Of a stretch of DNA of 64,000 nt, positions 1 through 27,675 are shown one piece after another (the stretch's first letter is position 1; the number at the start of each line of letters is the position of its first letter). A program made the position numbers and the translations under genes. The stretch is from an uncultured Oscillospiraceae bacterium (GTDB taxonomy: Bacteria > Bacillota > Clostridia > Oscillospirales > Oscillospiraceae), in contig CAMVMU010000003.1 of the NCBI GenBank assembly GCA_947168655.1, positions 1 through 64,000 on the forward strand. The letters run 5' to 3'. The notes beneath the pieces are model-generated. The model saw only the letters and a program-made list of their open reading frames with translations. It was not told the DNA's origin and did no database searches.

Positions 1-256
1 TGTACCCGGCTTTTCCACGGCCGCCGCGGCGTGCTGGCGGCCGGTGTGGTCGATGGTGTACTCCCCGGTGTAGATCAGTTGGGAGATGGGCACCACCGTG
101 TAGCCATCCTGGATGAGCGTATCCAAAATCCGGGGCAGGGCCTCCGGCGTGTGGAGTGCGGCATTGTGGAACAGCACGATGCTGCCCGGCGCAACCTGCG
201 ACGTGACCCGCTTATAAATCGTGTCCGCGTCGTAGTCCTTCCAGTCCAGGCTGTCC
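1..256 (-). pseudogene. C-terminal fragment of NodB polysaccharide deacetylase, separated from its N-terminus by the inserted island
   Basis: Minus-strand translation reads ...TDSLDWKDYDADTIYKRVTSQVAPGSIVLFHNAALHTPEALPRILDTLIQDGYTVVPISQLIYTGEYT..., typical of a PdaA/PdaB-type NodB C-terminus; runs off the left edge; in frame with the fragment at 27676-28217. Confidence 0.85.
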
Positions 257-490
257 GTGTACCATACAAAGGAAAGTCGTTGTGGTGCAAGGGATTGCGG
301 CGTTTCGGTACAAATGCGCATACAGCAGTTTTGAGACCTGATTCATGTGCACAATCGGGAAAAAAACCACCTTATTTTTGCCTCTATAGTCGAAAGCACA
401 AATATAAAATATCGCGTAAATACGAGGAATGTCTCAAATTGTTGGTTGGATCCTCGATTCCCAATAAGGTGGAAAAATGAGTAGTTTGTC
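257..490 (+). repeat. Left terminal inverted repeat region of the island
   Basis: Begins GTGTACCATACAAAGGAAAG; CCACCTTATTTTTG at 367-380; CAATAAGGTGGAAAAATGAGTAGTTTGT at 462-489; matches the reverse complement of 27441-27675 with the same spacing. Confidence 0.8.
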
Positions 491-1724: not shown

Positions 1725-2567
1725 TCATTCTTCCCCCTCTTGTTCATCGCCCGTTCTCTTGACACCCTTGCCCTCATTTTTTGCTTTTTTCTTTTTTAGG
1801 CTGGACAATAGACCGTCAGCTTTTTTGCTCACACCATCTGTCACAGGATTGAGCGCCTTCTCCAACTTTTCTCTTGTTCCGGAAAAAAACTTCGAAGCGG
1901 TGTCCCCAACTGCAGCCGCGACCGGCGTGACCGCCTCAACAACCTTTCCTCTCATTTTATCTATTGCGTTGGGTTCAAAGTGCAGTGCTTCGATACTCAC
2001 TTCATTGGTCTCATCCTCAATTATATTCTTCGCCTCGTTACAAATCACTTCCCTGCGGTGCATCAGTTCCTGCACCATCGGATGGATTTCTGAGTACGGC
2101 CTATCTGATCCAGAAAGAACTTCTAACTGCCGATCAATCGCCGAACTTGAATGAATAAGTTGTTCCATCTCCAGATAAACGCTTTTTTCAACGCCGGAAA
2201 TCCTCGCCACATGCTTGATCAACCTGCGCTCATTGGGATGAAAAACGGCGTCTTGCAGTGCGATAACCAACATATTCCAAATCAATAGCCTGGAAAAAAC
2301 GCAGCCATCCTCTTCAATCACAGGTCGTGCGAGAGCCTTATCAACGCCTTCTGCAATGACATCATATAAGTCTTCATCATCGAACATAGTCCCCATCTGC
2401 TGAGAATAGGCTGAAACTATGTCGTCGCGATAGACATCATATGTTTCCGGATCTAACTCTTGACCAATCTCATCCATTCTGTTGATTTCTTCAGTATTGA
2501 TAACTCCATCTGCAGCCATGAGATAGTAGAACGCTTCCACTGCGCTTCGTTTCGAGTATACCCTCAT
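1725..2567 (-). CDS. TerB-like (tellurite-resistance TerB fold) protein
   Basis: N-terminal FYYLMAADGVINTEEINRMDEIGQEL resembles the TerB/DjlA helical motif. Confidence 0.65.
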   Translation of the reverse strand: MRVYSKRSAVEAFYYLMAADGVINTEEINRMDEIGQELDPETYDVYRDDIVSAYSQQMGTMFDDEDLYDVIAEGVDKALARPVIEEDGCVFSRLLIWNMLVIALQDAVFHPNERRLIKHVARISGVEKSVYLEMEQLIHSSSAIDRQLEVLSGSDRPYSEIHPMVQELMHRREVICNEAKNIIEDETNEVSIEALHFEPNAIDKMRGKVVEAVTPVAAAVGDTASKFFSGTREKLEKALNPVTDGVSKKADGLLSSLKKKKAKNEGKGVKRTGDEQEGEE

Positions 2568-2579
2568 CTGTTTTCCTCC

Positions 2580-4169
2580 TCACAACTTAAAAGCCTCGTC
2601 CGATGCCATTAGCGTGTCAAACTCGCTCTGGTTGGAAAACTGGATTTCTCTGCCCATGATACGCTGGATTCTCAGATTGCCTCGAATGAATCCCTCTGTG
2701 TCATTCTTAATCATCGCTGTCTCCATGTCCGAAGTGCCTGTTATGTATGTCTGCAGATCTTCCGCAAGATATTGATCGATTAGTTTTTCCAGTTGTTCGC
2801 GGTAATCGCGGATCATTTCGACCGCCTTCTCTGTCTTTGCCTCTGTTAAGATCCTCTTTTCACGCAGCAATTGGAGTTCCTTCTGATCGGCCGAAATCTC
2901 CTTACACACGGAGATGGTTGCCGTTGCGGCACCGACCAGATTCAATCTGCTTGCAAATCCTCCCAGAAAAATAGCCGCATTTCCGCCTGATTCAAGTGCT
3001 GAGCGGAGCGCAGCATCCGCAGTATCCGCTGCGGTAAATGTAAGATTGGCGATGGTGGTCATTCTCTCAACAGTGCGGTTTCCAACAGGGCACACCCGCT
3101 TCCAGTCAACTTCACGGAGAGATGTGTGCTCTCTGCACTCCTCTGCCAAATGGCGGGCAAAATAGAAGCTGCGGACGAGAATTTCATTCAGCAGGACAGG
3201 GATACTCTGCTTAGATAGGTTTTTCATCAGAGGAAGCTCTCTGCGCAAATTCAGCTTTTCTTTAACGTATAGGTCATTGATGTATTTTGGCATTCCTGTC
3301 TGATTCAAGCCGGGCATACTGCTGATCTCATACAATAGGGAGAGAAAGATTCCCGGTATGCCCATTCCTGCCCCAGCCGTCTGTTTGGATCCCCCCATAT
3401 CACTGACCAAATGGCCGAACCAGTTGTCTGCGCATTTGAGCACCTCAATTGCAAGGGGTGCGTTGGCAAGTAACTTGATTAGTTTTCTGACATACTCCGG
3501 GAGATTCTCCCCTTCCGATTGATGTTCCTCAGCCATGGCAATCAGCCAATCAGTCACGCCTGTAACGACAGCGGGAATCCAAATCTTTGCCAGATCCTTT
3601 CCGGCGGTGTCTACGCGCTCAATATGCCACTCTCCATCTTTGTTGACAAAGACTCCGATCCGCAAGAACTGTACCAGTATAGCGGACACAAGCCCCAAGG
3701 GAGTTGGGTGATGGGCAAGGTCCGCCAGATGATGGTTTTTTGCACCTACGCCGATGTCCTGTCCCTTCCAGACATTATCTTGAGCGACTTTAAACTTATC
3801 TTCCAAAAATGCAATCTTGCTTTTTAGCTTCGGCTTGGGATTCTTGCTCTCAAAACCCCTTTTCTCAGCATACTCCTCTATGAAGTGGTTAACCTGCTCA
3901 TGTGAAAGGCTGATATCTGCTTTTGTAATCGTCAGCTTTCCAATAAAGAAAGAATCCACAATTCCGCACAGGATACCACTGGCAACCGCAACAGCGTAGT
4001 CAAGGCGGTCTGCCTGGTTAATGTATCGTTCAAGTTGATTATCGAGCAGGTTGAGCTGCTCCTGAAGTTTAGCCAACTCCTCACTGCTGTTATCATTCAA
4101 ACCAACCGGTAAAGAATACTGTAGACCTATCAGTTCCTTCTCCATGGTGATTTCTCCATCCTTAACCAT
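2580..4169 (-). CDS. Hypothetical protein, 529 aa, third member of the TerB-linked module
   Basis: Long ORF closely spaced with the TerB-like gene; coiled-coil N-terminus and hydrophobic segment AVAVASGILCGIVDSFF. Confidence 0.65.
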   Translation of the reverse strand: MVKDGEITMEKELIGLQYSLPVGLNDNSSEELAKLQEQLNLLDNQLERYINQADRLDYAVAVASGILCGIVDSFFIGKLTITKADISLSHEQVNHFIEEYAEKRGFESKNPKPKLKSKIAFLEDKFKVAQDNVWKGQDIGVGAKNHHLADLAHHPTPLGLVSAILVQFLRIGVFVNKDGEWHIERVDTAGKDLAKIWIPAVVTGVTDWLIAMAEEHQSEGENLPEYVRKLIKLLANAPLAIEVLKCADNWFGHLVSDMGGSKQTAGAGMGIPGIFLSLLYEISSMPGLNQTGMPKYINDLYVKEKLNLRRELPLMKNLSKQSIPVLLNEILVRSFYFARHLAEECREHTSLREVDWKRVCPVGNRTVERMTTIANLTFTAADTADAALRSALESGGNAAIFLGGFASRLNLVGAATATISVCKEISADQKELQLLREKRILTEAKTEKAVEMIRDYREQLEKLIDQYLAEDLQTYITGTSDMETAMIKNDTEGFIRGNLRIQRIMGREIQFSNQSEFDTLMASDEAFKL

Positions 4170-4210: not shown

Positions 4211-4946
4211 TCACTTGAAGGCTGCCGCAATGCGCCTGTTTCTTTTTTCCAAAAACTCCATCTGTCGGCTGATCCAAAGGAGATACTCATCGACAGTTTT
4301 CGGAAGAGGGTCTTCGATGAAATCGGCATTTCCAATCCAGATTTTTACCTCGCTATAATCGGTGGTCACACAATCCTGCAGAAAGAAGAAATCAACGAAC
4401 CCCTTGAAATCAACAAACAGATCAAAAAATCCCTTATCTCGAACAAGCGTCTTACTGATCGGACTCTCTTTGCCGTTGTAGTACCTTCGAATACACTCCA
4501 GTGTCAAATCCCAGCGATCACGGAGCTTCGGGCTTGTGCCTTCTTCCGGCGTGCTTTGGGAAAATCATCATGCCACCGATCGTATACGCTCTATGCAAAT
4601 AGTCCTCAACAAAGGCTCTGTAATCTGGGACAACCTTTTTCACCGCGTCCAGCATGTGGCGATACTTCTCGTATCGGAAGCTGACGATGATGGAGTCGCT
4701 GCCGAAGCGGAAATCCATCCATGTCAGGTAATTAGACCCTGTGCCGCACTGCAGTTCCATCGTATCACCACATGGGAGTTTCCTGCTCCAAATAGTCTGG
4801 TGATAGAGTTGGAGAGTTTTGCTTAACGAATCTGGATCACCGTTTCCGATCCCAAGGCCCTCGTTTCCTTCCCAGAAGTTGTCCCAATAGTGTGGCGTAT
4901 CGAGGGTAAAGTCAGCTGCAACATCAATCTTTATTCCGTTGGACAT
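4211..4946 (-). pseudogene. Frameshifted gene resembling the DUF6994 family (halves 4518-4946 and 4211-4507)
   Basis: Upstream half ends ...YTIGGMMIFPKHAGRRHKPEAP*; downstream half continues as QSTPEEGTSPKLRDRWDLTLECIRRYYNGKESPIS in another frame; the join is expected near TTCCCAAAGC (~4555-4565). Confidence 0.6.
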
Positions 4947-5180
4947 GGTGCCACCTCCGATCTGTTTTAATTATATCACAGGACGGATTGCACCACAAGA
5001 TGGACATACAGAGAGGATGTAACGTGGAATGGGTTACAACCGCACTGTTTGTGACTAAAACTGCTATTTCAAAAAACACTGGCTTACAAACAATTGTATT
5101 GAGTGGTTTTGGCGTCCATGGCTTGCTTATAAGGCACCTGCCACTAATAGTATCATCACTACAGAAAAACAAAAATGCAA

Positions 5181-5243
5181 ATAAGAGGCCTTTTTCTCGC
5201 GGAAATACCCGAATTATCCGCAAAAAGGGCCTCCTTATTTTTT
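5181..5243 (+). terminator. Rho-independent terminator-like hairpin not adjacent to any annotated 3' end
   Basis: AATAAGAGGCCTTTTT...AAAAAGGGCCTCCTTATTTTTTTT. Confidence 0.6.
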
Positions 5244-5299: not shown

Positions 5300-6230
5300 T
5301 GGGTCAAATGGCTTCCGATCCGAGGATTTTGGCGACGAAAAGCACATAGGGGCGGCAAAAAGATTGGATGACCAAAATTTCCTTGGCACAGTCCAACGAG
5401 GCAAAATATTACGGAGGAAGAAAAGCGGCACAATATTTTTAGGGCATCTGAGAATGTGCCGACATTAACCAAAACGACGGGGCGAACATAGGCGCGCTTG
5501 AAGCGTATGAGCTTCACACGCTTGTGTGAAAAGAATCGGCAAGAGAGGATAATGCGTTTTTCATGACTTGGAATTGTGTTGAAGGGCGAAATATTACAAC
5601 GGAAAGAAAAAGACACAATTTTTATAGAGCATTTGGGTTACACCGGCGGTCAGCTAGAGTCGCTGACAAGACTTAATAGCAATAAAGCAAAGAATGAGCC
5701 CCACCCTTTTGAGCGCGAGAGAATTGTCCAAGCTGGAGATGGATAATTTGCTGTCACATACCAGAGCGGAAGAAAAATATTACGAAGAGAACAAACAGAC
5801 ACAATTTTCATAGGGTAACTGCGAATGCGCAAGAAGCTGGCAAAAAGTGTCGCCAACATCAAAACGCAGCGTAGATATGGCACCGAGCCTCACGATTGTG
5901 CGAACCAGATAAGTTGGCAAGTTGGTATCCGATGAGTCCCAAGTTCATGCCTGCGTGGAGGCAAATTTTTACGAAGAAAACAAACAGGCAAAATAATTAT
6001 AGGGCAACTGCGAATACGGAAAAGGCAAGTAAAAAATGTCGCGAGCATCAACGTGCGGAGCATATTTGCGCCGAACCACCCGCTCTTGCGTGCCCCAAAA
6101 GCGGGCGAGAGAGCGTCAGATAGTCCCTAGGTTCAAATCGGCAAAATTTTTAAAAGGAAGAATTTAGGAACATTCTTATTAGAGCAACTGAAAAAACGCG
6201 GACAGTTACCCAATGCCCCACATTAATGCG
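5300..6230 (+). repeat. Degenerate tandem repeat array, ~186-bp period, five recognisable heads plus a partial upstream unit
   Basis: Related ~58-nt heads at about 5401, 5587, 5773, 5961 and 6141 (consensus roughly GCAAAWTWTTACGAAGRAARAAANAGRCACAATTTTTATAGGGCAACTGNGAAT); spacings 186/186/188/180. Confidence 0.75.
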
Positions 6231-6255
6231 AGAAAAAAGAAGGAGGTGAACAAAA

Positions 6256-7830
6256 ATGAGAAAAAAACCAAAAACAATTGATTACTATGGCTGTGTGTTT
6301 CACTATCGGTTTGAGCGGCGGGCAAAAGGCCTGACAATAGTGTATTCGTTGCGGCGGGACAGAAAAATTATAAATGAGCTCGAGAGGAGCGTACCAAAAA
6401 AACTGCAAACAAAGTCCGATGAACAGATAGCCTGGGAAATGTTTCCGGGCACAATTATAGATTTGTTCGGCGTTTTGGAAGACTCAAGTTCAGATATCGA
6501 AGAGCTTGCTACTCAACGGAGAAACTTGCCGTTAGCTATGGTATGGCTTTTGGATCGTGAGGATATTGCCCAAGATCATGGCTGGTCCGCCGGTTCATTG
6601 GCGGATTATGACAAAATTGCGGAAAAACTTATAAACCGGTGGGGAAATAAGCCGCTACGGGAGATTGAACCTAAAGAGAGCGATCGCATATTAAAAAAGG
6701 ATGACGAAGTGAGCGATTCGGAACGAACGCGCTGTGAACGCCTTTTACAATTTATATGCCGACGGGAAGCGTTTTTGGGCTATTTGTCTGAGAAGGAGAA
6801 CCTGTGGCAGTTTTTTAGTCCGTCCGATCTTTCCAGAAAGCGATCTCGAAATTCCTACATCAACACGAATATTGAAAACAGAGACTTCACAGCAGGGCAG
6901 TATGCGGATGCAGTAAAAAAATGCGTTGAAAGAATTAATCAAAAAGACATGGATTCACGGTGGTATTTTGCCTCTCTGCTGTATTTAACGATGGCCTTGG
7001 ATGCAAGCGAGCTGTGCGGCTTATCTTTTGCCAGCTTTCGTCTCTTGAAAAACTACCCGAATCGATATGTGCTGATCGTAAAGGATACTTATCAACGAAG
7101 GAGTGGGACAAAAGAAGGCCACTGTTGGCTCCGACAGCAAGACGATGCGTATCGCATCCGTATGGTGCCATGTTCCGATTTGGTGGGTGTGGCATTTGGT
7201 AGCATCTATGCAAAATTTTTAGTAAAATATGGCGATAGCGTAAAGCTTGAGGAATACCCACTTCTGTGTGATAGAAAAAACGTGTGCCGTAGAATAGATC
7301 CGGAGGCGTTTAAAGAGAATTTTAGAGAAGAGTTTGGAGAACTGTTGTCTGCAAACAGAGTCATGAAACCCCAAAAAGAACTGAAGAAGGACACAATTAG
7401 ATCAACTAGCGAAATTGCCAAAATGATTCGCCGTACAGTTAAAGCAAATCTCCTGAATGCCGGATGTGAAGAAGAAGAAATTCGGTACTTTCTCGGGGAG
7501 ACTCCGCTCACTACAGCGGCAAAACACTATATGGATTCGGGAAATGAAGCGGAACTGAATAGGATGGGGGCGATTCAGGACCGGTGGCATTCGAAGCTCT
7601 ACCCTAGGATTGCAGACTATCCCGTGTGGGAAGAAGGGGGGAATAGAAGAATTTGGGCTTGGCATAATCCTACGCCGGGCATGATCGGTGACGTGAAAAT
7701 TCGCTGCACCATTCCTCCGGCAAAAACGGAAAATGCTGGAGATGTTATTTTGGGCCTGATTGCCAAGCACGGGGTGTCTTATCACGCACAACTGCTCAAA
7801 TCAGATCACAAGAAAGGAGGTGAGGAATAA
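6256..7830 (+). CDS. Tyrosine-recombinase-like protein, probably catalytically degenerate
   Basis: C-terminal region resembles the phage integrase fold (TMALDASELCGLSF, RIRMVPCSDL, MIRRTVKANLLNAG, IRYFLGETPLTTAAKHYMD); the first catalytic Arg position is Asp. Confidence 0.65.
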   Translation: MRKKPKTIDYYGCVFHYRFERRAKGLTIVYSLRRDRKIINELERSVPKKLQTKSDEQIAWEMFPGTIIDLFGVLEDSSSDIEELATQRRNLPLAMVWLLDREDIAQDHGWSAGSLADYDKIAEKLINRWGNKPLREIEPKESDRILKKDDEVSDSERTRCERLLQFICRREAFLGYLSEKENLWQFFSPSDLSRKRSRNSYINTNIENRDFTAGQYADAVKKCVERINQKDMDSRWYFASLLYLTMALDASELCGLSFASFRLLKNYPNRYVLIVKDTYQRRSGTKEGHCWLRQQDDAYRIRMVPCSDLVGVAFGSIYAKFLVKYGDSVKLEEYPLLCDRKNVCRRIDPEAFKENFREEFGELLSANRVMKPQKELKKDTIRSTSEIAKMIRRTVKANLLNAGCEEEEIRYFLGETPLTTAAKHYMDSGNEAELNRMGAIQDRWHSKLYPRIADYPVWEEGGNRRIWAWHNPTPGMIGDVKIRCTIPPAKTENAGDVILGLIAKHGVSYHAQLLKSDHKKGGEE

Positions 7831-9332
7831 TGGATAAAGAGTTGTCGCTCATTGCATACTGGGAAAAATTTCGTGAAGAGATTAAAAAACTGAGAAATTG
7901 GTGCAACGACACCTTTCTGGATTATGACCAATTATTGAAAACGATAGCGAATATTTTAGGATATAAGGCGATAGGCTGCATCGTGGCCAACGATATCGGA
8001 AAGGCGTTGGAATGGGTGCAAAACAGCAAAAGCGGAGGCGGAAAGTATTCAGAAGCAACCATGCAAAAATTCCGGGCCGTGCTTTGGGATCTGTTTTTAT
8101 TTGCAGCAAATCGAGGGGATGCCACGAATGTTATGAAATATTTCCATGCGCCTCGATTGTCGTCATCGGAATATAAAAATGATATGGATTTAATTGCGGA
8201 TTTCTTCAACCCCGATGCAGATCTGACAAAGGTCAGGGCGCAAATGCAAAACCTTCGTGATCGCAAGCCGTATCTAATGAGGTCACTGTCGATCGAAAAA
8301 AGACTGCTTCTTGTGGGTAGAATAATTAAGCATATTGAGAAAGATGGCAGGTATGTTTGTCTGGCAATTATGCTGTTCACTGGCCTTCGTCCTGCAGAAG
8401 CAAGGGCCATCTGCTGGGAGGATATACACCCCTTCGTGGATCGATCAGATGCGTTCTATCTCACGGTCGATAAAATTCTCAACAAAAAGGGCGAAGTTTT
8501 GGAGAAGACCAAGACCGGTAACGGATATCGCAGAGTTCCGATTCACATAGAACTGCTCAACGTCCTTAATCGCCGTCGAGCCTATATCCAGAAAAAGACA
8601 GGGAAAGAACCAACCGGATATATTTGTTGTAAAGATGACCATCTAGGCGAGCCTGTATGGGATTATGAACTCGCTTCTGTAGGAGATCAGGTAATGAACA
8701 AAGAGCTTCTTGGGGAAGAAATCATCATTGGATGTGCGCTGGACATGTGCGATGAATTGTCCGGAAACACACAAGAAGAAAAAGACAGTGATGTGTTCGA
8801 CCACTTCACTCTCTACGTGCTGAGACGCAACTTCATGACTTGGATGGAGGCAGAGACAGAACTGGATGAAATGGAGAAAAACTACCTAATGGGTCACTCG
8901 ATGGTAGACAACGAGAAGGATATGAGACCCGAGTACAACAGTGAAGATAAGCTTTTGGCTATGCTGGATAAGATGAATCGATTCGCGATTCGCAAAGAGG
9001 ATCACTTTGATCTTGTTACGCGAAAACTGACCGCAGATAGCGTTGTATTTGGGACTGGAAATGGTATTAATCGGCTCGAAATCTCCGCGGAAGATTGTAA
9101 AGATGGAGCTACTGTAGAAATCAGCGCCCATCTGGAGGAACCAAACGATGCTATCATGTTGTATTCCTTGCGTCCAACGCGTAATACATATGGGATGATC
9201 ACAGTTGATTCGGTGACAACCGAGGAGCATATAGTATCAAGACCGCATAAGGAAATCAATTTGCAGTTCGACAATTGGTGCGCAATTACTAACGCGAAAA
9301 AAAGGAAAAAGGAGAAAGAACAAAACAAATAA
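7830..9332 (+). CDS. Tyrosine recombinase / integrase
   Basis: FTGLRPAEARAICWEDI, LYVLRRNFMTW, NYLMGHS motifs; start overlaps the upstream stop; C-terminal extension of ~120 aa. Confidence 0.8.
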   Translation: MDKELSLIAYWEKFREEIKKLRNWCNDTFLDYDQLLKTIANILGYKAIGCIVANDIGKALEWVQNSKSGGGKYSEATMQKFRAVLWDLFLFAANRGDATNVMKYFHAPRLSSSEYKNDMDLIADFFNPDADLTKVRAQMQNLRDRKPYLMRSLSIEKRLLLVGRIIKHIEKDGRYVCLAIMLFTGLRPAEARAICWEDIHPFVDRSDAFYLTVDKILNKKGEVLEKTKTGNGYRRVPIHIELLNVLNRRRAYIQKKTGKEPTGYICCKDDHLGEPVWDYELASVGDQVMNKELLGEEIIIGCALDMCDELSGNTQEEKDSDVFDHFTLYVLRRNFMTWMEAETELDEMEKNYLMGHSMVDNEKDMRPEYNSEDKLLAMLDKMNRFAIRKEDHFDLVTRKLTADSVVFGTGNGINRLEISAEDCKDGATVEISAHLEEPNDAIMLYSLRPTRNTYGMITVDSVTTEEHIVSRPHKEINLQFDNWCAITNAKKRKKEKEQNK

Positions 9333-9458: not shown

Positions 9459-10496
9459 TTATCCGCAAAGCACGTTCAGATACATCCCGTTGAACTTGAT
9501 CTTCGCGCCCGAGGCGTCAGTGGTGATGGCATCATTCTCAAGGAGTTCGTCGAGACTTGTGAGCTGGGCTTCCACGTCGTCGACGATATGCACCAGCAGC
9601 GCGCACAGCGTGCGGGGGTTCTCTCCGAATTCCCCGTGGTGCTGCAGCACCACGCTGCAAATCATGTAGAAGAACTCCTCGTCGTACAGGTCAGAGATCA
9701 TCTGCTTGTATGCCAGAAGGTGCTCAAAGCCGAGGCCCCTGTGGGTCAGGAAGGAGTTGGCCTGATACACGCCATCGTGCATCTCATAGATCTTCCCGAT
9801 GTCGTGCAGCGCCAGGCCGATCACCATAAGGTCATTGACCTTCTCGTTATCCAGAAAGGCATATGCGCCTTTGATGCCGTTGTAGACACGGATGCACTTT
9901 GCGGTATGTGCCAGCAGGCCGGAGGCACAGTTATCGTGATGGGAATATGCTGCGTACTCCTTAACAAGGCGTACGCTCACGAAGTCTTTGTAGTCCATAT
10001 GCATGACCGCGCGGATCACGGACATCGCGTTTTCGGAGATCCCGCTTGCATCCAGAGCCTTTTTGAACTCTGCAACAATTTCCTTTTCGGAATATTTGTG
10101 GTAGACAAACACATCCGGATCGTATTCGTCCGTGTCCGAGATGCTGCTGATAACCAGCCCGTACTTAGACAGGGTATAGCTGATTCGAACCACATGGGGC
10201 TGCGCGTCAGTGGGAAGCTGCTCGAAATACTCGTACGCGGACGAGCTGTTCCAAACGTTAAACTTGGCTTCTTCCTGGTTCACGATGGTGCCGGAGAACT
10301 TGGGTTTGCCGGAGCAGGTGGTGCCCTGGTTGAAATTCTTGAGAAGGACAATGCCTTCCCCACGGATCTCGGCAGGTGAACCGCCGAGATCTGCGGCGCG
10401 CTGGATTTCAAGAAGTTTCTTGTTCACTTCAGAAATCACGATCGGAGCGGAATCATTCGTTTCCACATCCGCAAAAGTAAACGTTGTATTTGACAT
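9459..10496 (-). CDS. HD-domain nuclease/phosphohydrolase, YhaM-like (OB-fold plus HD)
   Basis: Start MSNTTFTFADVETND; GIVLLKNFNQGTTCSGKPKFSGTI; HHDNCASGLLAHT...VIGLALHDIGKIYE. Confidence 0.65.
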   Translation of the reverse strand: MSNTTFTFADVETNDSAPIVISEVNKKLLEIQRAADLGGSPAEIRGEGIVLLKNFNQGTTCSGKPKFSGTIVNQEEAKFNVWNSSSAYEYFEQLPTDAQPHVVRISYTLSKYGLVISSISDTDEYDPDVFVYHKYSEKEIVAEFKKALDASGISENAMSVIRAVMHMDYKDFVSVRLVKEYAAYSHHDNCASGLLAHTAKCIRVYNGIKGAYAFLDNEKVNDLMVIGLALHDIGKIYEMHDGVYQANSFLTHRGLGFEHLLAYKQMISDLYDEEFFYMICSVVLQHHGEFGENPRTLCALLVHIVDDVEAQLTSLDELLENDAITTDASGAKIKFNGMYLNVLCG

Positions 10497-10539: not shown

Positions 10540-12003
10540 TTACACAGCCCACTTGACCTCTGCGCTGTTTTCGGATACTTCGATCCGCTCGATGAACTGG
10601 GCGGCAACGGCCTTCTTCTCCTCAAAGGACAGCTCGCAAAATACCAGCCTGTCCGGCAGGGAGGGACGGGTTGCTTCCCGCTTTCGCTCCTCCAGCAGCT
10701 GCTTGCGCTCCTTTTCCAGACGCGCAAGCGCCCGCTGGAGATAGGCATTGGACATGTCCTCGCTCTCCGCGAAGGCGTCCATCAGACGATCGGCCCGGCG
10801 GTCCAGCTCGTCCAGCTTGGCGGCATAGACGTCCTTCTCCGGGGCAGCCGTCTCAACGGGACATTCCGACAGCAGCTTGTCCAGTTCCAGAGCCACAGCC
10901 TCCTCCAGCTCCGTCAGATCCACGTGGATGGAGGCGTCACAGTGCGCGGTGTTGTAGCGCCCGCTGCAGATCATCCAGCGGTACTGCTTCTCCGTCTGAA
11001 TCTTGATGCTGTATCCGCACTTGGCGCACTTCAACAGCCCGCTGAGCCAGGTGTGCTTGCCCTTTCCGGCGTTGCCGATCTGGGCGTTGCGCTGCAGCTT
11101 TTCCTGACACCGCAGCCAGAGCTGAGAGGGCACGAGCCCGACGCTGCCCAGCACCACCAGCGTGTGCTGGCGGACGTCGGTGTACTTGCGCTCATTTGCC
11201 TCCCGCTTGCCGTAGAGGAAGGCATTGTGCGTACCGTCGAATGCGCCTTCCGGGGCGTCCACATGGACGCCCATAGCTCTGTAGTGGAGATACACCTGCT
11301 CGTCGGCCATAACGTAGACAGGGTTATGGAGAATGCGGGACAGACTGACGTTGTCCCAAAAGGCACGCTTGGCACAGGGAATGCCCCGGTCGTTCAGCTT
11401 GCGGACGATACTGCCCAGAGAGGCGTCCTCCTGGGCGTATTCCTGGAAGATGAACTGTACCACCTTGCTGGTCTCATCATCGGGGAAAAGCGTGGGGACA
11501 ACTCGCCCGTTGGCGTCGTGGCTGCGTCCGATCCCGTAGCCGTAGGGCGCGGGCCCGCCGGGCCACGCGCCACTGGCGGCACGGGAGATGTAATTGTCGT
11601 GGACGCGCTCAGAGGTGGTTTCCCGCTCCAGCTGGGCGAAGACCATGATGATGTGGAGCATGGCTCTGCCCATGGGCGTCGCCGTGTCAAAGTTCTCGGT
11701 GACAGACACAAACTCCACCTGGTGCTCCTGCAGGACCTTCCACAGCTGGCTGAAGTCGGCGATGGAGCGGGAGAACCGGTCCAGACGGTAGACGTAGAGC
11801 TTCTGGATCTTGTCCGCCTTGATGTCGTTCAACAGCCTCTGAAAGTCGGGGCGCGCCGTATTTTTGCCGGAGTAGCCCCGGTCCTGATAGAGCCGGATGT
11901 CATCGGTGCTGGCTGCCCGCCGGCACAGCTCCTGCTGCCCCTGAATGGAGAGGCTGTTTTTCTTCTCGATGGACTGGCGGGCATAGATGGCTTCGTACCG
12001 CAT
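10540..12003 (-). CDS. Large serine recombinase
   Basis: MRYEAIYARQSIEKKNSLSIQGQ resolvase N-terminus; YRLDRFSRSIADF; recombinase domain with a KCAKCGYSI zinc ribbon. Confidence 0.92.
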   Translation of the reverse strand: MRYEAIYARQSIEKKNSLSIQGQQELCRRAASTDDIRLYQDRGYSGKNTARPDFQRLLNDIKADKIQKLYVYRLDRFSRSIADFSQLWKVLQEHQVEFVSVTENFDTATPMGRAMLHIIMVFAQLERETTSERVHDNYISRAASGAWPGGPAPYGYGIGRSHDANGRVVPTLFPDDETSKVVQFIFQEYAQEDASLGSIVRKLNDRGIPCAKRAFWDNVSLSRILHNPVYVMADEQVYLHYRAMGVHVDAPEGAFDGTHNAFLYGKREANERKYTDVRQHTLVVLGSVGLVPSQLWLRCQEKLQRNAQIGNAGKGKHTWLSGLLKCAKCGYSIKIQTEKQYRWMICSGRYNTAHCDASIHVDLTELEEAVALELDKLLSECPVETAAPEKDVYAAKLDELDRRADRLMDAFAESEDMSNAYLQRALARLEKERKQLLEERKREATRPSLPDRLVFCELSFEEKKAVAAQFIERIEVSENSAEVKWAV

Positions 12004-12006
12004 GGC

Positions 12007-12222
12007 TTACGCGCTCCGACGCCGGACGCCCTTTGCCTTCTCACGCTGGGCGCGAATTAGCGCCAGGCAGATCCGCTGTCTGTCACGTACCTCGCTGCGG
12101 CGGGCGTCCTCATCGGCATGGCTGGGGTGCGTGTGCTTGATTTCCATAGGCGACCCTCCTCGGTCAAGCCTATGAGCGGCCGCGGCGGATAATTCCACGA
12201 CCGTGGGAGTCTTTGATAACAT
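12007..12222 (-). CDS. Small hypothetical protein co-directional with the serine recombinase
   Basis: ORF MLSKTPTVVELSAAAAHRLDRGGSPMEIK... preceded by AAAGGAG. Confidence 0.55.
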   Translation of the reverse strand: MLSKTPTVVELSAAAAHRLDRGGSPMEIKHTHPSHADEDARRSEVRDRQRICLALIRAQREKAKGVRRRSA

Positions 12223-13096: not shown

Positions 13097-13214
13097 AGTA
13101 TCACCACACGTTCCTGTAATTGTACCATTATTATAGGTTGCGTGGTGTGTAAATTAGTCCCTGTAACTGTACTAATCCGGACAATCGTGTTACACTTTGC
13201 CTGGAGGCGATGAA

Positions 13215-13700
13215 ATGACTGACTTGCGTAATAAGACGTGCTGCTTTACGGGACACAGGGATATACCGGAGAGGGATCGTGTGCAAATATGCCAACGAGC
13301 CGAAAGGATTATTCGGCAGCTTTACAGCCGAGGCGTTCGTTATTTTGGCGTGGGTGGAGCAATTGGCTTTGACACCATGATGGCCAATCTGCTGATGGAA
13401 CTGCGCAAAAAGGATCTTCCGGACATCAAGGTGATTCTGGTCAAACCCTTTGAGGGCTATACAAGCAGATGGAGCAACGAACAGAGGAAACAGTATGAAG
13501 CGCTGCTGCCACAGTATGACAAGGTGGTATGTGTGTCAGATTCTCCCGGCCGCCAGGCCTACCTGGCCCGTAATCGCCATATTGTAAAGCATTCCGCCTT
13601 TTGCATTGCCTACTGTACCCGTGCCACCGGCGGAACAGCATATACGGTGGAATACGCTTGGCAGCTGGGCGTGACGGTTTATAATGTGGCAGAGATGTGA
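13215..13700 (+). CDS. SLOG/DUF1273 (YpsA-like) family protein
   Basis: CCFTGHRDIPERD, GVGGAIGFDTMMANLLMELRK, YLARNRHIVKHSAFCIAYC. Confidence 0.75.
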   Translation: MTDLRNKTCCFTGHRDIPERDRVQICQRAERIIRQLYSRGVRYFGVGGAIGFDTMMANLLMELRKKDLPDIKVILVKPFEGYTSRWSNEQRKQYEALLPQYDKVVCVSDSPGRQAYLARNRHIVKHSAFCIAYCTRATGGTAYTVEYAWQLGVTVYNVAEM

Positions 13701-13780
13701 GTTTTTGAAATCATATAATTCTCAAAGATAAAGCATGGAGTTTTTTGATTATTTGTGCTAAAATGACAAAATAAGACATA

Positions 13781-16700
13781 ATGGGATTATATAACGTGTT
13801 ACAAGACAGAAAAACCGGGGTGAGCAGCGTGGAAATACTCGACAACATTAACCGCACGATGCGTGATGAACTGCTGACATCGATCAAAGGTGGCAGCAAG
13901 GTATCTATTGCTGCGGCGTATTTTTCCATTTATGCCTATCAGGAGCTTCGTGACCAGCTGGAGAGAGTTGACCAGCTCCGTTTCATTTTTACATCCCCCA
14001 CATTTTTGAAAGAAAAAGCGGAAAAGGCACGGCGTGAATTCTATATTCCCAGGCTGAACCGTGAGCGCAGTATCTACGGAACAGAATTTGAAATCCGCCT
14101 CAGAAACGAATTGACGCAGAGAGCCCTTGCCAAGGAGTGCGCAGACTGGATCCGCCGGAAAGCCGTATTCAAATCCAATGTCACACAGGAGCGGATGATG
14201 GGATTCATGACGGTGGACGAGGCGTCCTACATGCCAATCAACGGTTTTACCACTGTGGATCTGGGCTGTGAGCGCGGTAATAACGTATATTATCCCGTCC
14301 AGAAAACGGAAAGCTATGAAAATGGCCGCTACTTTCTCAAGCTCTTTGATGAGATCTGGGCAGACAGTCATCGCCTGGAGGACGTGACGGATATTGTCAT
14401 TGAGAGCATTTCAGTCGCCTACAAAGAGAACTCCCCTGAGTTTATCTACTTTTTCACCCTGTATAATATTTTCAATGAGTTTCTGGAGGACATTTCCGAG
14501 GATGTCCTGCCCAACGAGGCTACCGGATTCAAGCAGAGCAAAATCTGGAATCTTCTCTATAACTTCCAGAAGGACGCTGCGCTGGCAATTATCAATAAGC
14601 TTGAAAAATACAATGGCTGCATTTTAGCGGACAGTGTGGGCCTGGGCAAAACCTTTACAGCTCTCGCGGTCATCAAGTACTACGAAAACCGCAACAAATC
14701 CGTGCTGGTGCTTTGTCCCAAGAAGCTGTCTGAGAACTGGAATACATATAAAAGCAACTACACCAACAACCCCATTGCCGCTGACCGATTGGGGTATGAT
14801 GTGCTGTTCCACACAGACCTGTCGAGAGATAGGGGCCAGTCCAACGGCATCGATCTTGCGCGTATCAACTGGGGCAACTATGACCTGGTTGTGATCGATG
14901 AAAGCCATAACTTCCGCAACGGCGGCGATGTTTCCGGTGAAGATGACCGGGAAAACCGCTACTTGCGTCTTATGAATCGTGTGGTGCGTGCAGGCGTCAA
15001 GACCAAGGTTTTGATGCTCTCTGCCACGCCGGTCAACAACCGGTTCAATGACTTGAAAAACCAGCTCGCCCTTGCATATGAGGGCAACTCCGAATACATT
15101 AACCGCCAACTGAATACAACCAAATCTATTGATGAGATTTTCCGCAGTGCGCAGAAATCCTTTAACGCGTGGAGCAAGCACCCCGCAGAGGAACGAACCA
15201 CAGATGCTCTGCTGAAAACACTGGACTTCGACTTCTTCGAGGTGCTGGACAGTGTGACCATTGCCCGCTCCAGAAAGCATATCCGGAAGTATTACAATAC
15301 AGAGGATATCGGCACGTTCCCGGAACGGTTGAAGCCGATCTCCAAAAGCCCGCATCTCACCGATCTGAGCGATGCCATCAATTATAATCAGATTTACGGC
15401 ACGCTGAATTTACTTCATCTGACCATTTATACCCCCTCCAATTATATCCTGCCTTCCCGTGTCGCAAAGTATCAGGAGCTTACCCATAATGTGGGAACAA
15501 GCCTGACCCAAAGAGGTCGTGAGCAGGGTATCCGCCGCCTGATGAGCATCAACCTTCTCAAACGGCTGGAGAGCTCGGTCTATGCCTTTCAGCTGACGGT
15601 AGACAGGATCCGGAACTACATTGACTCCACCATCCGCGCCATCGACATGTACCGCGATGGACAGATGTCTTTGGAGCTGTATGAAATCTCCCAGGCAGAC
15701 GATTTTGACTACGATGATCAGAACAGCGACCTGTTCTCCGTCGGAAAGAAAGTCCGCATTGATCTGGGGGACATGGACTACGTTTCCTGGCGCAGAGAGC
15801 TTGCAGAGGACAGTGAAAACCTCGAGCTGCTTTCCCTGATGATCAAGGATATCACGCCGGAGCACGATTCCAAGCTTCAGGCTCTGCTGGAGTTGATCGA
15901 CGAGAAGATGGCGCATCCCATCAACCCCGGCAACAAAAAGCTGCTGATCTTTACGGCGTTTTCCGACACCGCCGACTATCTCTATGCCCATGTCAGCGCA
16001 TACGTCAAGGAGCATTATGGGCTTTCCACTGGTGAGATCACCGGCACCGTTGACGGAAAAACCACCATCCCCAAATTACATGCCGATCTGAATACGGTGC
16101 TGACCTGCTTCTCGCCCATATCCAAGAGCCGTGATACTTTGAATCTCAAAACAAACGCGGATCTGGATGTGCTGATTGCCACCGACTGCATCTCCGAAGG
16201 ACAAAACCTGCAAGACTGCGACTACCTGATCAATTACGATATCCACTGGAACCCTGTGCGGATTATACAGCGCTTTGGCCGTATTGACCGTATTGGCAGC
16301 CGAAATGCCTATATCCAGCTGGTCAACTTCTGGCCCGATATGGATCTGGATGAGTATATCAACTTGAAGGCACGAGTCGAGACCCGCATGAAGATTTCTG
16401 TCATGACCTCCACCGGCGACGATAACTTGATCAGTGCCGAGGAGAAGGGTGATCTGGAGTATCGCCGCGCCCAGCTGAAGCGTCTGCGTGACGAGGTGGT
16501 GGACATCGAGGATATGTCCAGCGGAATCTCCATTATGGACCTGGGACTGAATGAATTCCGGCTGGATCTGCTGGAGTACATGAAGCACCACGATGACGTG
16601 GAGCGCACCCCCTTTGGCATGAGTGCCGTGGTACCTGCCACGGAGGAATGTCCGCCCGGTGTGATCTTCGTGCTGAAGAATGTCAACAGCGGGGTCAACA

Positions 16701-17053
16701 TCGGCAACCAGAACCGCATCCACCCCTTTTACATGGTTTATATTGACGTCAATGGGCAGGTGGTCTGCGACTATCTGGATCCCAAACGGATGCTGGACAC
16801 CATGCGCCTGCTCTGCCGCGGTAAGGCGGCTCCGGTGGACGAGCTGTGCCGCCAGTTCAATCGGGAGACCAAGGACGGCCGTGATATGCGCAAGGTCTCA
16901 ACCCTGCTCAATGATGCGATTGACTCCATTGTGAATACCAAAGAGGAGCGTGACATTGACAGCCTTTTCCGTCCCGGCGGAACAACGGTTCTATTCAATA
17001 ACATTTCCGGGCTGGAAGACTTTGAGTTGATCTGTTTTTTGGTTGTGAAGTAA
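13781..17053 (+). CDS. PLD-like N-terminus plus SNF2-family helicase
   Basis: Walker A region DSVGLGKTFTALAVI; VVIDESHNFRN; LMLSATPVNN; IQRFGRIDRIGS. Confidence 0.85.
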   Translation: MGLYNVLQDRKTGVSSVEILDNINRTMRDELLTSIKGGSKVSIAAAYFSIYAYQELRDQLERVDQLRFIFTSPTFLKEKAEKARREFYIPRLNRERSIYGTEFEIRLRNELTQRALAKECADWIRRKAVFKSNVTQERMMGFMTVDEASYMPINGFTTVDLGCERGNNVYYPVQKTESYENGRYFLKLFDEIWADSHRLEDVTDIVIESISVAYKENSPEFIYFFTLYNIFNEFLEDISEDVLPNEATGFKQSKIWNLLYNFQKDAALAIINKLEKYNGCILADSVGLGKTFTALAVIKYYENRNKSVLVLCPKKLSENWNTYKSNYTNNPIAADRLGYDVLFHTDLSRDRGQSNGIDLARINWGNYDLVVIDESHNFRNGGDVSGEDDRENRYLRLMNRVVRAGVKTKVLMLSATPVNNRFNDLKNQLALAYEGNSEYINRQLNTTKSIDEIFRSAQKSFNAWSKHPAEERTTDALLKTLDFDFFEVLDSVTIARSRKHIRKYYNTEDIGTFPERLKPISKSPHLTDLSDAINYNQIYGTLNLLHLTIYTPSNYILPSRVAKYQELTHNVGTSLTQRGREQGIRRLMSINLLKRLESSVYAFQLTVDRIRNYIDSTIRAIDMYRDGQMSLELYEISQADDFDYDDQNSDLFSVGKKVRIDLGDMDYVSWRRELAEDSENLELLSLMIKDITPEHDSKLQALLELIDEKMAHPINPGNKKLLIFTAFSDTADYLYAHVSAYVKEHYGLSTGEITGTVDGKTTIPKLHADLNTVLTCFSPISKSRDTLNLKTNADLDVLIATDCISEGQNLQDCDYLINYDIHWNPVRIIQRFGRIDRIGSRNAYIQLVNFWPDMDLDEYINLKARVETRMKISVMTSTGDDNLISAEEKGDLEYRRAQLKRLRDEVVDIEDMSSGISIMDLGLNEFRLDLLEYMKHHDDVERTPFGMSAVVPATEECPPGVIFVLKNVNSGVNIGNQNRIHPFYMVYIDVNGQVVCDYLDPKRMLDTMRLLCRGKAAPVDELCRQFNRETKDGRDMRKVSTLLNDAIDSIVNTKEERDIDSLFRPGGTTVLFNNISGLEDFELICFLVVK

Positions 17054-17083
17054 GCGATTACTGATGACAAGCGGGAGGACATT

Positions 17084-17920
17084 ATGATAGAACTTCTTTC
17101 CATACCGGATAAGTGTAAGAGGGAGCTATGTATTCCATTGAACCGCATCTTTACAGGCGAGGATAGCTATTCAGACGACATCCAATCGATTAGACTCCTT
17201 GCCGTGTTGGAACCACACACGGCAGATGTACTTCCAGCAAAGTCGGAACGACTTCGGATGGAAGAAATACATTTTTACCAAGTGGAATTGTCCTCGGTTG
17301 AAAACATCTACGAGCTTGCCGCAGTAATTTATCGGAAAATCGCCTATGCCTGTATTCTTTTGTTCCATTATAGACAGCAGAATAAATGGATGCTAAGCGC
17401 ATGCCCGTTCTATGTTGGAAAAGTGGACGAGGATAAAAACATTTTGCGTAGAATTGCCTGTTCTCATTGGATTCGGGCAAATGACCTGTCATCTGGAGGT
17501 CAAAAGATGATTGATGCTATTAATCAATTATTGATTAATGGTGGGAACATATCTGACATGTATACCGCTATTTACCACGAGGTGCAGTATTTCAAATTGT
17601 CCGGACTAGCAAAAACACATGTACAAGCAGTGTGCGAATTCTTGCTCGGCGCAAAAAACACACCATGGAATATAATTGAGGGATACTGCACCCCATACAA
17701 ATATTACCCACCCAAATCGGCATCTGGGGCTGCGCAATATAAAAGGAGGGATCGTTCTACTAGGTTTGTTTTCAGATACGATCCCGAAGATCTGTGGTAT
17801 GCGCTTTTACATTATGATAAAACACGGCGTATTATTGAAAATGGGAAATATCCGGATATAGATCGTCTGCTTTACCGGATTGACAGTGCAATTTACAACG
17901 AAGGTGGAAATGGTAGATGA
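17084..17920 (+). CDS. Hypothetical protein, possible divergent DUF4391-like paralog
   Basis: ORF between helicase and DUF4391 gene; MEEIHFYQVELSSVENIYELAAVIYRKIAYACILLFHYRQQNKWM parallels MEVFELQLNQPSLEEAVLRQIDKEIPYHILFILTCDGKSQAWI of the next gene. Confidence 0.5.
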   Translation: MIELLSIPDKCKRELCIPLNRIFTGEDSYSDDIQSIRLLAVLEPHTADVLPAKSERLRMEEIHFYQVELSSVENIYELAAVIYRKIAYACILLFHYRQQNKWMLSACPFYVGKVDEDKNILRRIACSHWIRANDLSSGGQKMIDAINQLLINGGNISDMYTAIYHEVQYFKLSGLAKTHVQAVCEFLLGAKNTPWNIIEGYCTPYKYYPPKSASGAAQYKRRDRSTRFVFRYDPEDLWYALLHYDKTRRIIENGKYPDIDRLLYRIDSAIYNEGGNGR

Positions 17921-18558
17921 TTGGTTTTCCCCGGTCAACTGAATACAACAGACGGATCCCCAAGCAGAAATTCTATGATAATCTGACCGTTACGCCGGCG
18001 CTGCGGCGGGTGTTTGTGGAGCAGATTAAGGTGATCTACTGGCGGAACAAGGTTGCGCCCAGCACCGTTAACGTTGCGCAGGGCAGCAATGTTACGGAGA
18101 TGGAGGTCTTCGAGCTGCAGCTCAACCAGCCCTCTCTGGAAGAGGCCGTTCTCCGTCAGATTGACAAGGAGATCCCGTATCATATCCTTTTCATTCTGAC
18201 CTGTGACGGGAAGTCCCAGGCGTGGATCGGCTATAAGGAGGCCTCCGCCTCCGGCAGCTTTAAGGTGAGCCGCTATTATCATACGGATTGGCTGGAAGGG
18301 GACAAGCTTGCCTTGAAGCTGGACGGTCTGACCACCGATGCCGTATATGAAAGCCTGGTTCGCCAGATTGCTGGAGAGGCGCTGACAAGCGCAGGGGACA
18401 GCCTGCGGGAGTCCGTGGATCGCAGCGCGAAAAGAGCGGAGCTGGAGAAAAAGATCGCCGCGCTGGAAACAAAAATCCGCCGGGAGAAGCAACTCAACCG
18501 ACAGATGGAAATGAATGCGGAATTGAAAAAATTGAAAGCAGAAATGGAGAAGTTGTGA
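17917..18558 (+). CDS. DUF4391-domain protein
   Basis: YNRRIPKQKFYDNLTVTPALRRVFVEQIKVIYWRNKVAPSTVNV; position between helicase and methylase; C-terminal coiled coil. Confidence 0.75.
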   Translation: MIGFPRSTEYNRRIPKQKFYDNLTVTPALRRVFVEQIKVIYWRNKVAPSTVNVAQGSNVTEMEVFELQLNQPSLEEAVLRQIDKEIPYHILFILTCDGKSQAWIGYKEASASGSFKVSRYYHTDWLEGDKLALKLDGLTTDAVYESLVRQIAGEALTSAGDSLRESVDRSAKRAELEKKIAALETKIRREKQLNRQMEMNAELKKLKAEMEKL

Positions 18559-19205
18559 TGGATTGGAAAACAATAGCGGAAATTGCTATAACATTTTCGG
18601 CGGCAGTAGGCGGAGGCGGTGCTGTTTTTATTGGAATAGTAAAATGGGCATCAAACATTATTGCAGATAGACTTTCAAAGAAATATGAAATGCAGATGAC
18701 CAAAGAGATTGAGCAATATAAAGCTGAGGTTGGAAAGAAGCAACATGTCAGTATCGCAACCTTTGATGCAGAATTTGCTATATACCGCGATCTATGCAAA
18801 GCGTTTAGTGAGTTTCTGCAAGACCTATTCACGCTTATTCCTATTTCTGAAAAGAGCCTGCCAGATAGGCAAATACCTATGAATCCCGATGAATACGCTT
18901 CCACTTCCAAAGAGATCTTTTTTCACGCATTATCTGCGTCTGCCAAATCAAAAGATCTGTTAACTGCAAACAAACCCTTTATTCCAAAGGAAATAGTAAA
19001 TTCCTTTTATATAATCTTGGATTTGACCGATCAGCAGCTGATTAGATTTTCTGAAAGATATAACAAGCTTGTTCCAGGAGAACCGCAGGAAAAAATGACG
19101 CTATCCAACGATGACTTTGCTGTTTCCCAAAAGATTTGGGAGCAATGGAACGCGATTTCCGACAGTATACGGGATTATCTCAGATCATTGGAAATTGTTA
19201 AATAA
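18555..19205 (+). CDS. Hypothetical protein with one N-terminal hydrophobic helix
   Basis: AEIAITFSAAVGGGGAVFIGIVKWASNIIADRLSKKYE then a soluble domain; start overlaps the upstream stop. Confidence 0.6.
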   Translation: MMDWKTIAEIAITFSAAVGGGGAVFIGIVKWASNIIADRLSKKYEMQMTKEIEQYKAEVGKKQHVSIATFDAEFAIYRDLCKAFSEFLQDLFTLIPISEKSLPDRQIPMNPDEYASTSKEIFFHALSASAKSKDLLTANKPFIPKEIVNSFYIILDLTDQQLIRFSERYNKLVPGEPQEKMTLSNDDFAVSQKIWEQWNAISDSIRDYLRSLEIVK

Positions 19206-19248
19206 GACATACCTCTACAGGAATCTTGTTTTTTGAGGAGAGAGATAG

Positions 19249-21150: not shown

Positions 21151-21713
21151 TTGCTATGAAAATAATGGACAAATTTGAAATGCTTGAACAGTACATAAGC
21201 CACGCAGATGAAATCTTAGACAAAAATGATATATCTTCTGCTGAACAATTTGTGCGCGAAGTAGTTGCGGTATATGGTATGGAAATCAGTGACATAAAAA
21301 GCCAGCTAGATACCTTTAGCATTGTTGCGTCGTATGGTGTAGGTACGCCGGACTACTTGGGGGATGTAAAGCTTTTGAAGGCAAAGCTGATGAACTATTA
21401 CAATAACCTACGATCCGGACTTTATAAAACCCTCATGTCTAGCGATGGCACAAATATCCATGTCAATCAGGAGATGCATAGCTCTATAAGCATATCACTA
21501 GAGCAAGTCGCAGAGGCCATCAACCGCATTCCAGAAACTGAACTAAGCGCTGAAGAAAAAGTTGAACTGACTGGCAAGCTTGCTTCCCTTTGGGCCGATA
21601 AAGATAAGAAGTCAAAGTGGGATAAAGCGAAAGAGATCCTCAAGTGGATAGGGGACAAAAGCGTGCAGGTAGGGATTGCGGCATTGCCGTACATTACACA
21701 GTCGATACAATAA
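21147..21713 (+). CDS. Hypothetical protein between mod and res
   Basis: 188-aa ORF overlapping the mod stop codon. Confidence 0.55.
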   Translation: MIAMKIMDKFEMLEQYISHADEILDKNDISSAEQFVREVVAVYGMEISDIKSQLDTFSIVASYGVGTPDYLGDVKLLKAKLMNYYNNLRSGLYKTLMSSDGTNIHVNQEMHSSISISLEQVAEAINRIPETELSAEEKVELTGKLASLWADKDKKSKWDKAKEILKWIGDKSVQVGIAALPYITQSIQ

Positions 21714-21722
21714 GGTGATACC

Positions 21723-22013
21723 ATGATTTATTCAGTACATGGCTATTATGGAAAAATAAATGGTCGCAAGCCACAGGCCAAGATTGAAGCCATAGTGTTT
21801 GCGGCATCTCCCAGTTTGGCACAAGAACTGGTGGAGAAGTTATTTGACGGCTATCCGGTTTTGTTTGACTATTTCACCGTGGTAGGAGGAACAGAGCAAG
21901 ATTTGCAAAAGATCTATAGAGAACGTCCAGAACTTGTTGGAATAGACCCTCATAGGGGCTACATTTATAACCAGTTTTCACACAAAGAGAGCATTCGGAG
22001 ATATTTCAAGTGA
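21723..22013 (+). CDS. Hypothetical protein between mod and res
   Basis: 96-aa ORF preceded by AAGGTGATACC. Confidence 0.5.
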   Translation: MIYSVHGYYGKINGRKPQAKIEAIVFAASPSLAQELVEKLFDGYPVLFDYFTVVGGTEQDLQKIYRERPELVGIDPHRGYIYNQFSHKESIRRYFK

Positions 22014-22029
22014 AGGAGTTTAGTTATAT

Positions 22030-25113: not shown

Positions 25114-25125
25114 GAGGATGAAGAA

Positions 25126-27440: not shown

Positions 27441-27675
27441 CACAAACTGCTCAATTTTCCACCTTATTTGGTGCAGAGCATTAAACAACGATTTGAAACA
27501 ATCATTGTATAAAACACGGTTTACGCCATGGTTGCTTCCGTCTACGAAGACAAAAATAAGGTGGAATTTTATCCGTTTGCGCACATGGATTAGGACTTAA
27601 AACTCCTGTTTTTGCATTCGGGCTTAATCACCGCAATCCGTTGTGCCGCAAGGGGTTTCGGTTGTATGGTATACA
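27441..27675 (-). repeat. Right terminal inverted repeat region of the island
   Basis: Reverse complement begins TGTATACCATACAACCGAAA; CCACCTTATTTTTG at 27551-27564; CAAATAAGGTGGAAAATTGAGCAGTTTGTG at 27441-27470. Confidence 0.8.

Follow-up and report, generated by a model that had tools for sequence, protein, structure and literature searches.

Within the window (the whole stretch of DNA analyzed here, 64,000 nucleotides from an uncultured Oscillospiraceae bacterium), an island of 27,420 bp (256-27675) interrupts a PdaB-like polysaccharide deacetylase gene. The left flank carries the C-terminal part of the gene on the minus strand, and the right flank carries the N-terminal part of the same gene. 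When computed on the two gene parts joined at the crossover core, the best NCBIfam model for the deacetylase was that of the sporulation protein PdaB (TIGR02764), at 200.7 bits. Because this score lies below the curated cutoff of 237.4, we refer to the gene as PdaB-like and regard its role in sporulation as putative. The features of the locus are as follows.

4-255, minus strand: C-terminal part of the split PdaB-like gene, residues ∼178 to 264 (tblastn 97% for residues 177 to 264 at C3:4-267; in frame with the N-terminal part via GA)
254-255, minus strand: crossover core GA, C side (TC on the plus strand); the shortest sequence shared by every N and C junction
256-277, plus strand: putative serine recombinase half-site, C side (CGTGTACCATACAAAGGAAAGT; contains the motif ACCATACAA of the preliminary description); conserved inverted halves in pdaB islands with the serine recombinase
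278-490, plus strand: C-type long-end extension, shared only with the sister island G757 (N/C similarity at 46 to 300 nt, score of 152 versus a shuffle maximum of 40)
367-380, plus strand: inner motif CCACCTTATTTTTG, +111 from the crossover
463-489, plus strand: inner motif AATAAGGTGGAAAAATGAGTAGTTTGT, at +207, in the opposite orientation to the first inner motif and resembling a ribosome-binding site plus start codon
719-1777, minus strand: defense-like cargo, PDC-M09A-like (Pfam/PADLOC)
1725-2567, minus strand: defense-like cargo, TerB-like (Pfam/PADLOC)
2580-4169, minus strand: defense-like cargo, BnzB-like (Pfam/PADLOC)
4211-4946, minus strand: split DUF6994 gene (Pfam/PADLOC), lying in two frames, probably by frameshift
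5361-6253, plus strand: array of five diverged ∼186-bp direct repeats (spacings of 185/186/189/180), directly upstream of the Y1/Y2 pair
6256-7830, plus strand: Y1, predicted tyrosine recombinase-fold protein with an N-terminal beta domain; Tyr conserved, canonical Arg/His not conserved (AlphaFold model; Foldseek Tn1549 integrase, E value of 2.4e-6; alignment)
7830-9332, plus strand: Y2, predicted tyrosine recombinase-fold protein; Arg/Lys/His conserved, nucleophile Tyr position variable among homologues
9459-10496, minus strand: gene for an HD-domain protein, lying downstream of the serine recombinase; within the set examined, only the two long-end islands have it
10540-12003, minus strand: large serine recombinase, 487 aa (Resolvase, Recombinase, and Zn ribbon domains), the conserved integrase of pdaB-site islands
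12007-12147, minus strand: MEIKHTHP-type microprotein, 46 aa, which stops a few bases ahead of the serine recombinase start and is conserved upstream in most pdaB islands
13197-27156, plus strand: defense cargo (SLOG, HKD plus Snf2 helicase, DUF4391 pair, type III methyltransferase and restriction enzyme, GmrSD type)
27442-27653, minus strand: N-type long-end extension, in which the two inner motifs lie at 27564-27551 and 27468-27442
27654-27675, minus strand: putative serine recombinase half-site, N side (TGTATACCATACAACCGAAACC); conserved inverted halves in pdaB islands with the serine recombinase
27676-27677, minus strand: crossover core GA, N side; the shortest sequence shared by every N and C junction
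27676-28217, minus strand: N-terminal part of the split PdaB-like gene, residues 1 to 181 (Polysacc_deac_1, E value of 9e-35; TIGR02764 PdaB is the best model)

Among 31 genus genomes surveyed, the PdaB-like gene is intact in ∼14 and is split at the identical codon in G757, G772, G755, G036, G769, G768, G762, and others; in the first three, both gene parts lie on one contig, 14 to 37 kb apart. The identical break, after ...GTG-GA, was also found family-wide, and nearly all intact relatives carry TGGGAYGTGGAYAGYCTNGAYTGG as the empty site. At 17 N-side junctions, the gene can be followed up to ...GTGGA, or a closely similar sequence, before it diverges, while at 19 C-side junctions it restarts at GAY.... 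The sole sequence common to all of these junctions is the 2-bp GA, a boundary that was found with patterns built on the pdaB sequence and that marks the end of similarity to the gene. A 3-bp GGA core was also considered and set aside; the preceding G is present at 14 of the 19 C junctions and absent at 5. When the flanks are joined at the core, the frame is restored, and GTG-GA plus YAG matches intact relatives codon for codon. Judged from these junctions, the target is a fixed, conserved codon (GTG-GAC-AGT) and not a variable one.

Another contig of the same assembly (C26, positions 4970 to 5230; locus L076) holds a second pdaB C-terminal part, 85% identical and with its own island junction, which may reflect a strain mixture or contamination of the metagenome-assembled genome. 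The deacetylase gene also has a second break point, at residue ∼68 (DAAWG motif), in G342, G765, G770, G764, and G758 (L068 to L074). The inverted half-site at this position is not the same (TGATGCAAAAGTGCGG), and the contigs of G342, G764, and G765 also encode another, different serine recombinase.

The domains of the large serine recombinase were matched by Pfam (E values of 2e-38, 9e-13, and 5e-10) and by a PHROG integrase family (3e-100). At an E value of ≤1e-120, the protein is present in 33/401 family genomes from 19 genera. The pdaB junction lies at GA in 16 of 20 fetched serine recombinase loci; in a seventeenth, the recombinase adjoins a pdaB gene that is apparently unbroken at the GA site. 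On the 45-kb contig of G036, which stops short of the other junction, no copy of the recombinase was found. Common to pdaB-site islands are a large serine recombinase, usually a microprotein upstream of it, and ∼22-nt inverted terminal half-sites. In the smallest island (G289, ∼3.3 kb), the serine recombinase is the only recombinase and is accompanied by the microprotein and by two genes identified by eye from the sequence as aquaporin-like and nitroreductase-like. Homologues of Y1 and Y2 were not detected in the 20 family loci. The terminal motif, target, and crossover persist in islands with no detected tyrosine pair. Together, these findings make it likely that the terminal motif belongs to the serine recombinase. 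The N- and C-side half-sites are 50 to 86% identical, which is above shuffles in most pairs, with the exception of G755 and G159. Half-site identity follows recombinase identity (Mantel rho of 0.33, P = 0.0005, in a test that ignores host relatedness), and the correlation is weaker for windows further inward than the half-site. The outermost ∼22 nt are thus most likely the attP half-site of the serine recombinase. Across pdaB islands, the microprotein measures ∼36 to 60 aa, with its C-terminal end at or near the recombinase start; Pfam and PHROG searches returned no match for it. Matches to sigma-E-like promoters ahead of the serine recombinase gene were scattered, and none was consistent.

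The preliminary description of this DNA held that the island ends are ∼235-bp divergent inverted repeats with motif spacing conserved to about 1 nt, and alignment bears this out. Positions 257 to 498 align with the reverse complement of 27674-27432 over 242 columns with a local score of 196, compared with a maximum of 39 (mean of 23.5, standard deviation of 3.7) for 1,000 dinucleotide-shuffled pairs and a maximum of 32 for 1,000 random island windows. By BLAST, the two ends are 71.4% identical over 234 nt. In both ends, CCACCTTATT begins at +111 and AATAAGGTGG at +207 from the crossover, a spacing difference of zero. As had also been described, these two motifs are mutually inverted within each end, and the quoted intervening stretches are recognizable in the alignment of the two ends. 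Within the 79.8-kb contig, the 9-mer CCACCTTAT is present four times when its complement is counted as well, and all four copies fall inside these ends.

By these comparisons, the first ∼22 nt and the remainder of the repeat are two different things. The inner repeat (∼46 to 235 nt) appears only in the present island (G000) and its sister G757, where the score corresponding to that listed above is 77 versus a shuffle maximum of 32, and as far as the sequences tell, it is a lineage-specific addition. It is absent from six other islands with both ends known and no tyrosine pair detected: G772, G755, G089, G289, G159, and G769 (the two ends of which come from different contigs). The preliminary description had named homologous islands with ends lacking its motifs as evidence against it; with regard to the inner motifs as general integration sites, these six islands are of that kind. 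Its proposal of a recombinase end complex holds in that these are recombination ends with a half-site-like outer motif, whereas the inner "arm" motifs are lineage specific. Scanning for the motif pair found nothing in viral contigs. The same scan returned nine stretches in genome contigs, with no pdaB, serine recombinase, or Y genes nearby, and these were taken as chance.

In G757, the inner motifs start at +111 and +206 in one end, while in the other end the first starts at +109 and the second is lost. The N end of that island holds a degenerated inner motif copy, CCACCTTAATTTTC, and its C end has AATAGACACT in place of AATAAGGTGG; one inner motif is therefore lost and another altered. Between the two islands, N ends are 84% identical and C ends 85%, compared with 71% between N and C ends, which places the separation of the two end types ahead of the divergence of the islands. 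The conserved columns of the long ends are clustered (P = 0.008, three sequences). A degenerate N-type end also lies inside G757 (L060, 13970-14340) and is bordered on its outer side by additional genes, an arrangement that suggests a composite island and possible tandem accretion.

Both long-end islands carry the HD gene, a diverged pair of tyrosine recombinases, and an array of ∼186-bp repeats. In G757, the array (L061, 12544-13274) has four or more copies, with a spacing range of 180 to 189 bp. No homologue of it was found in the other loci examined, and Rfam matched only tRNAs in the window, with no match in the array. Tn1549 integrase is the top PDB match for the models of both Y1 and Y2 (mean pLDDT of only 65 and of 74, respectively), and the N-terminal beta domain of the Y1 model is like those of arm-binding integrases. 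Among homologues (loci L012, L015, L017, L061, and L073), Y2 keeps R187, K228, R332, and H356, and its expected tyrosine position is occupied by Y in two, F in two, and L in two of six sequences; Y1 homologues keep the tyrosine Y425 and not the canonical arginines. Distant homologues of the pair (20 to 33% identity) occur in G175, G381, G036, and G764, all near pdaB fragments. Single-protein scans with Y2 retrieved no relatives from genome contigs, viral contigs, or a plasmid collection. One reading of these residues is that the two proteins act only together, as a hetero-recombinase whose active site is divided between them (Tyr in Y1; Arg/Lys/His in Y2), for which, in this lineage, the long ends and the array would constitute a second recombination or regulatory layer over a serine recombinase island. 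We regard this as quite improbable; the split active site is a lead, because the residue assignment relies on motif spacing and on models of low to moderate quality.

Divergence between the two long-end islands is uneven. Synonymous divergence (dS) is 0.10 to 0.14 for the serine recombinase (0.14), HKD-Snf2, and SLOG genes, 0.55 for the HD gene, and saturated or nearly so for Y1/Y2 and the type III genes. Since pdaB itself shows a dS of 0.5 to 1.7, the recombinase block has moved recently between lineages. Both pdaB halves are open frames with dN/dS of 0.01 to 0.4 where computable. Given the recent spread of the recombinase, purifying selection on the halves is by itself no proof of long-term function while interrupted; the low dN/dS could alternatively reflect recent insertion.

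Taken together, the probable explanation is a site-specific integrative element, driven by the serine recombinase and resembling skin and gin, with the inner motifs as accessories. The serine recombinase (10540-12003) would recombine the 2-bp GA core and ∼22-nt inverted half-sites with the pdaB-like codon GTG-GAC-AGT. Excision would join the flanks at the core and bring the deacetylase gene back in frame and, since joining restores the frame, the element probably behaves like skin and gin, being retained during growth and lost by excision from the dying mother cell. The MEIKHTHP microprotein is a possible directionality factor for the serine recombinase. Our leading guess for the inner ∼190 nt, with the inverted CCACCTTATT/AATAAGGTGG pair, is that they offer accessory binding sites for Y1/Y2. 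An arm-site role of this kind is possible, as both proteins have the fold and co-occur with long ends in two islands, and the link rests on these two sister islands.

The preliminary description had instead likened the ends to the core and arm sites of a Tn916-like element, with the tyrosine recombinase at 7830-9332 moving the island. The fold of Y1 and Y2, their match to Tn1549 integrase, the resemblance of the inner inverted motifs to arm sites, and the co-occurrence of the pair with long ends all speak for this model. However, the terminal motif, target, and crossover are unchanged in islands that have the serine recombinase and in which no tyrosine pair was found, homologues of Y2 vary at the nucleophile position, and the junctions share 2 bp at a fixed target as opposed to a coupling region of 5 to 7 bp. 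A 2-bp core with inverted half-sites is a serine recombinase pattern, and not a Tn916-like tyrosine core. We therefore consider it very unlikely that the tyrosine recombinase is the mover. A similarly low probability attaches to RNA control, in which read-through transcripts would fold so that CCACCTTATT pairs with the ribosome-binding site AATAAGGTGG, blocking translation from the next ATG or TTG. The motif AATAAGGTGG does precede one of these two codons, a Ser codon differs synonymously, and the N-end strand is predicted to fold into a strong hairpin (z score of −3.9). Against this, the C-end fold (z score of −0.35) is no better than shuffles and the N-end pairing is broken in G757, such that a conserved RNA structure in the ends is unsupported by folding. 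In addition, the C-end start leads into 8 codons only, and the other two translations share just their first residues.

Rather unlikely, although less so than these, is that the long ends are passive remnants with no binding function: a rearrangement would have duplicated one end to the other side, and decay would have followed. Their restriction to two sister islands fits such a history, as do the lost and altered inner motifs and the degenerate internal N-type end of G757, whereas the distinctness of N and C types before the islands split and the clustering of conserved columns argue against it. A further alternative concerns the excision step only and overlaps the site-specific element favored here: an ordinary defense island may have inactivated a dispensable deacetylase, with no developmental excision. 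We hold this to be a tentative but real possibility, given that the deacetylase falls below the PdaB cutoff and the recombinase has spread recently. It accords less well with use of the target codon in many genera, with two open halves under purifying selection in hosts that carry sporulation genes, and with the second insertion point at residue ∼68, where a different serine recombinase is found, as expected of an intervening-element niche.

Regarding the hosts, Spo0A is encoded in 29/32 and SpoIVA in 27/32 genus genomes, counts that refer to genes and not to phenotype. A sigK-like gene is apparently split near residue 110 in some genus members (G756:C20/C19 and G761), which suggests that skin-like elements occur there as well. 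The serine recombinase islands suggest that, across many genera of a family with sporulation genes, a spore-type deacetylase gene serves as a niche for gene interruption, and such islands can carry defense systems. If excision is tied to sporulation, defense islands would stay in the vegetative and spore lineage and be lost only by the dying mother cell. The natural alignment of attP half-sites, together with a candidate directionality microprotein, makes specificity and directionality directly testable.

Published intervening elements interrupt sigK, spsM, spoVFB, gerE, and yabG (PMC10747680; PMC5595907); a literature search, with most subscription papers outside its reach, found no pdaB-interrupting element. 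Like the present island, gin of Bacillus cereus gerE is a nonphage island with several recombinase genes inside; it splits a sporulation gene, as the present island may do, and its serine recombinase excises the element with a small directionality factor (PMC5595907). The present island differs in its gene (pdaB-like), recombinases, defense-rich cargo, and long ends, and its excision is only inferred. The skin (sigK) and yin (yabG) elements likewise combine a serine recombinase with a fixed target, in their case a sporulation gene, and have small recombination directionality factors, such as the 53-aa CD1234 (PMC5025042; PMC10747680). In contrast to the island described here, they are prophage-like, and the deacetylase is absent from the interrupted genes listed in PMC10747680.

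Elements of the SE, GInt, RIT, and Tn554 types also hold several tyrosine recombinase-like genes in one operon, and in SE and GInt one recombinase lacks part of the catalytic motif (PMC10214605; PMC5385486). Their published ends are short inverted repeats of 13 to 34 bp, and SE and Tn554 leave a 6-bp footprint (PMC10214605; PMC5385486). Membership in these groups, which entails three recombinases or a TnpC/Srap-like helper along with short ends, was considered and, judged by the recombinase genes and terminal sites, rejected; the present island has two Y genes, not three or four, and its terminal sites follow the serine recombinase. With Tn916/Tn1549, it shares the integrase fold of Y1 and Y2 and inverted ends. 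Those elements have a 5- to 7-bp coupling sequence and variable targets, whereas this island has a fixed codon, a 2-bp shared core, and a serine recombinase, and was not assigned to them. No Pfam domain of a conjugation module was found in the open reading frames scanned. SCC (Ccr) islands feature a large serine recombinase, inverted end repeats, a fixed gene target, and tandem accretion. The present family resembles them in its large serine recombinase, end repeats, fixed target, and signs of tandem accretion (G757), but the recombinase scores 108 bits against the CcrB model, for which the cutoff is 900, and SCC membership (CcrA/B/C) was likewise rejected. The island does show the hallmarks of a large serine recombinase element, with integrase domains and two inverted half-sites around a 2-bp core at a fixed attB.
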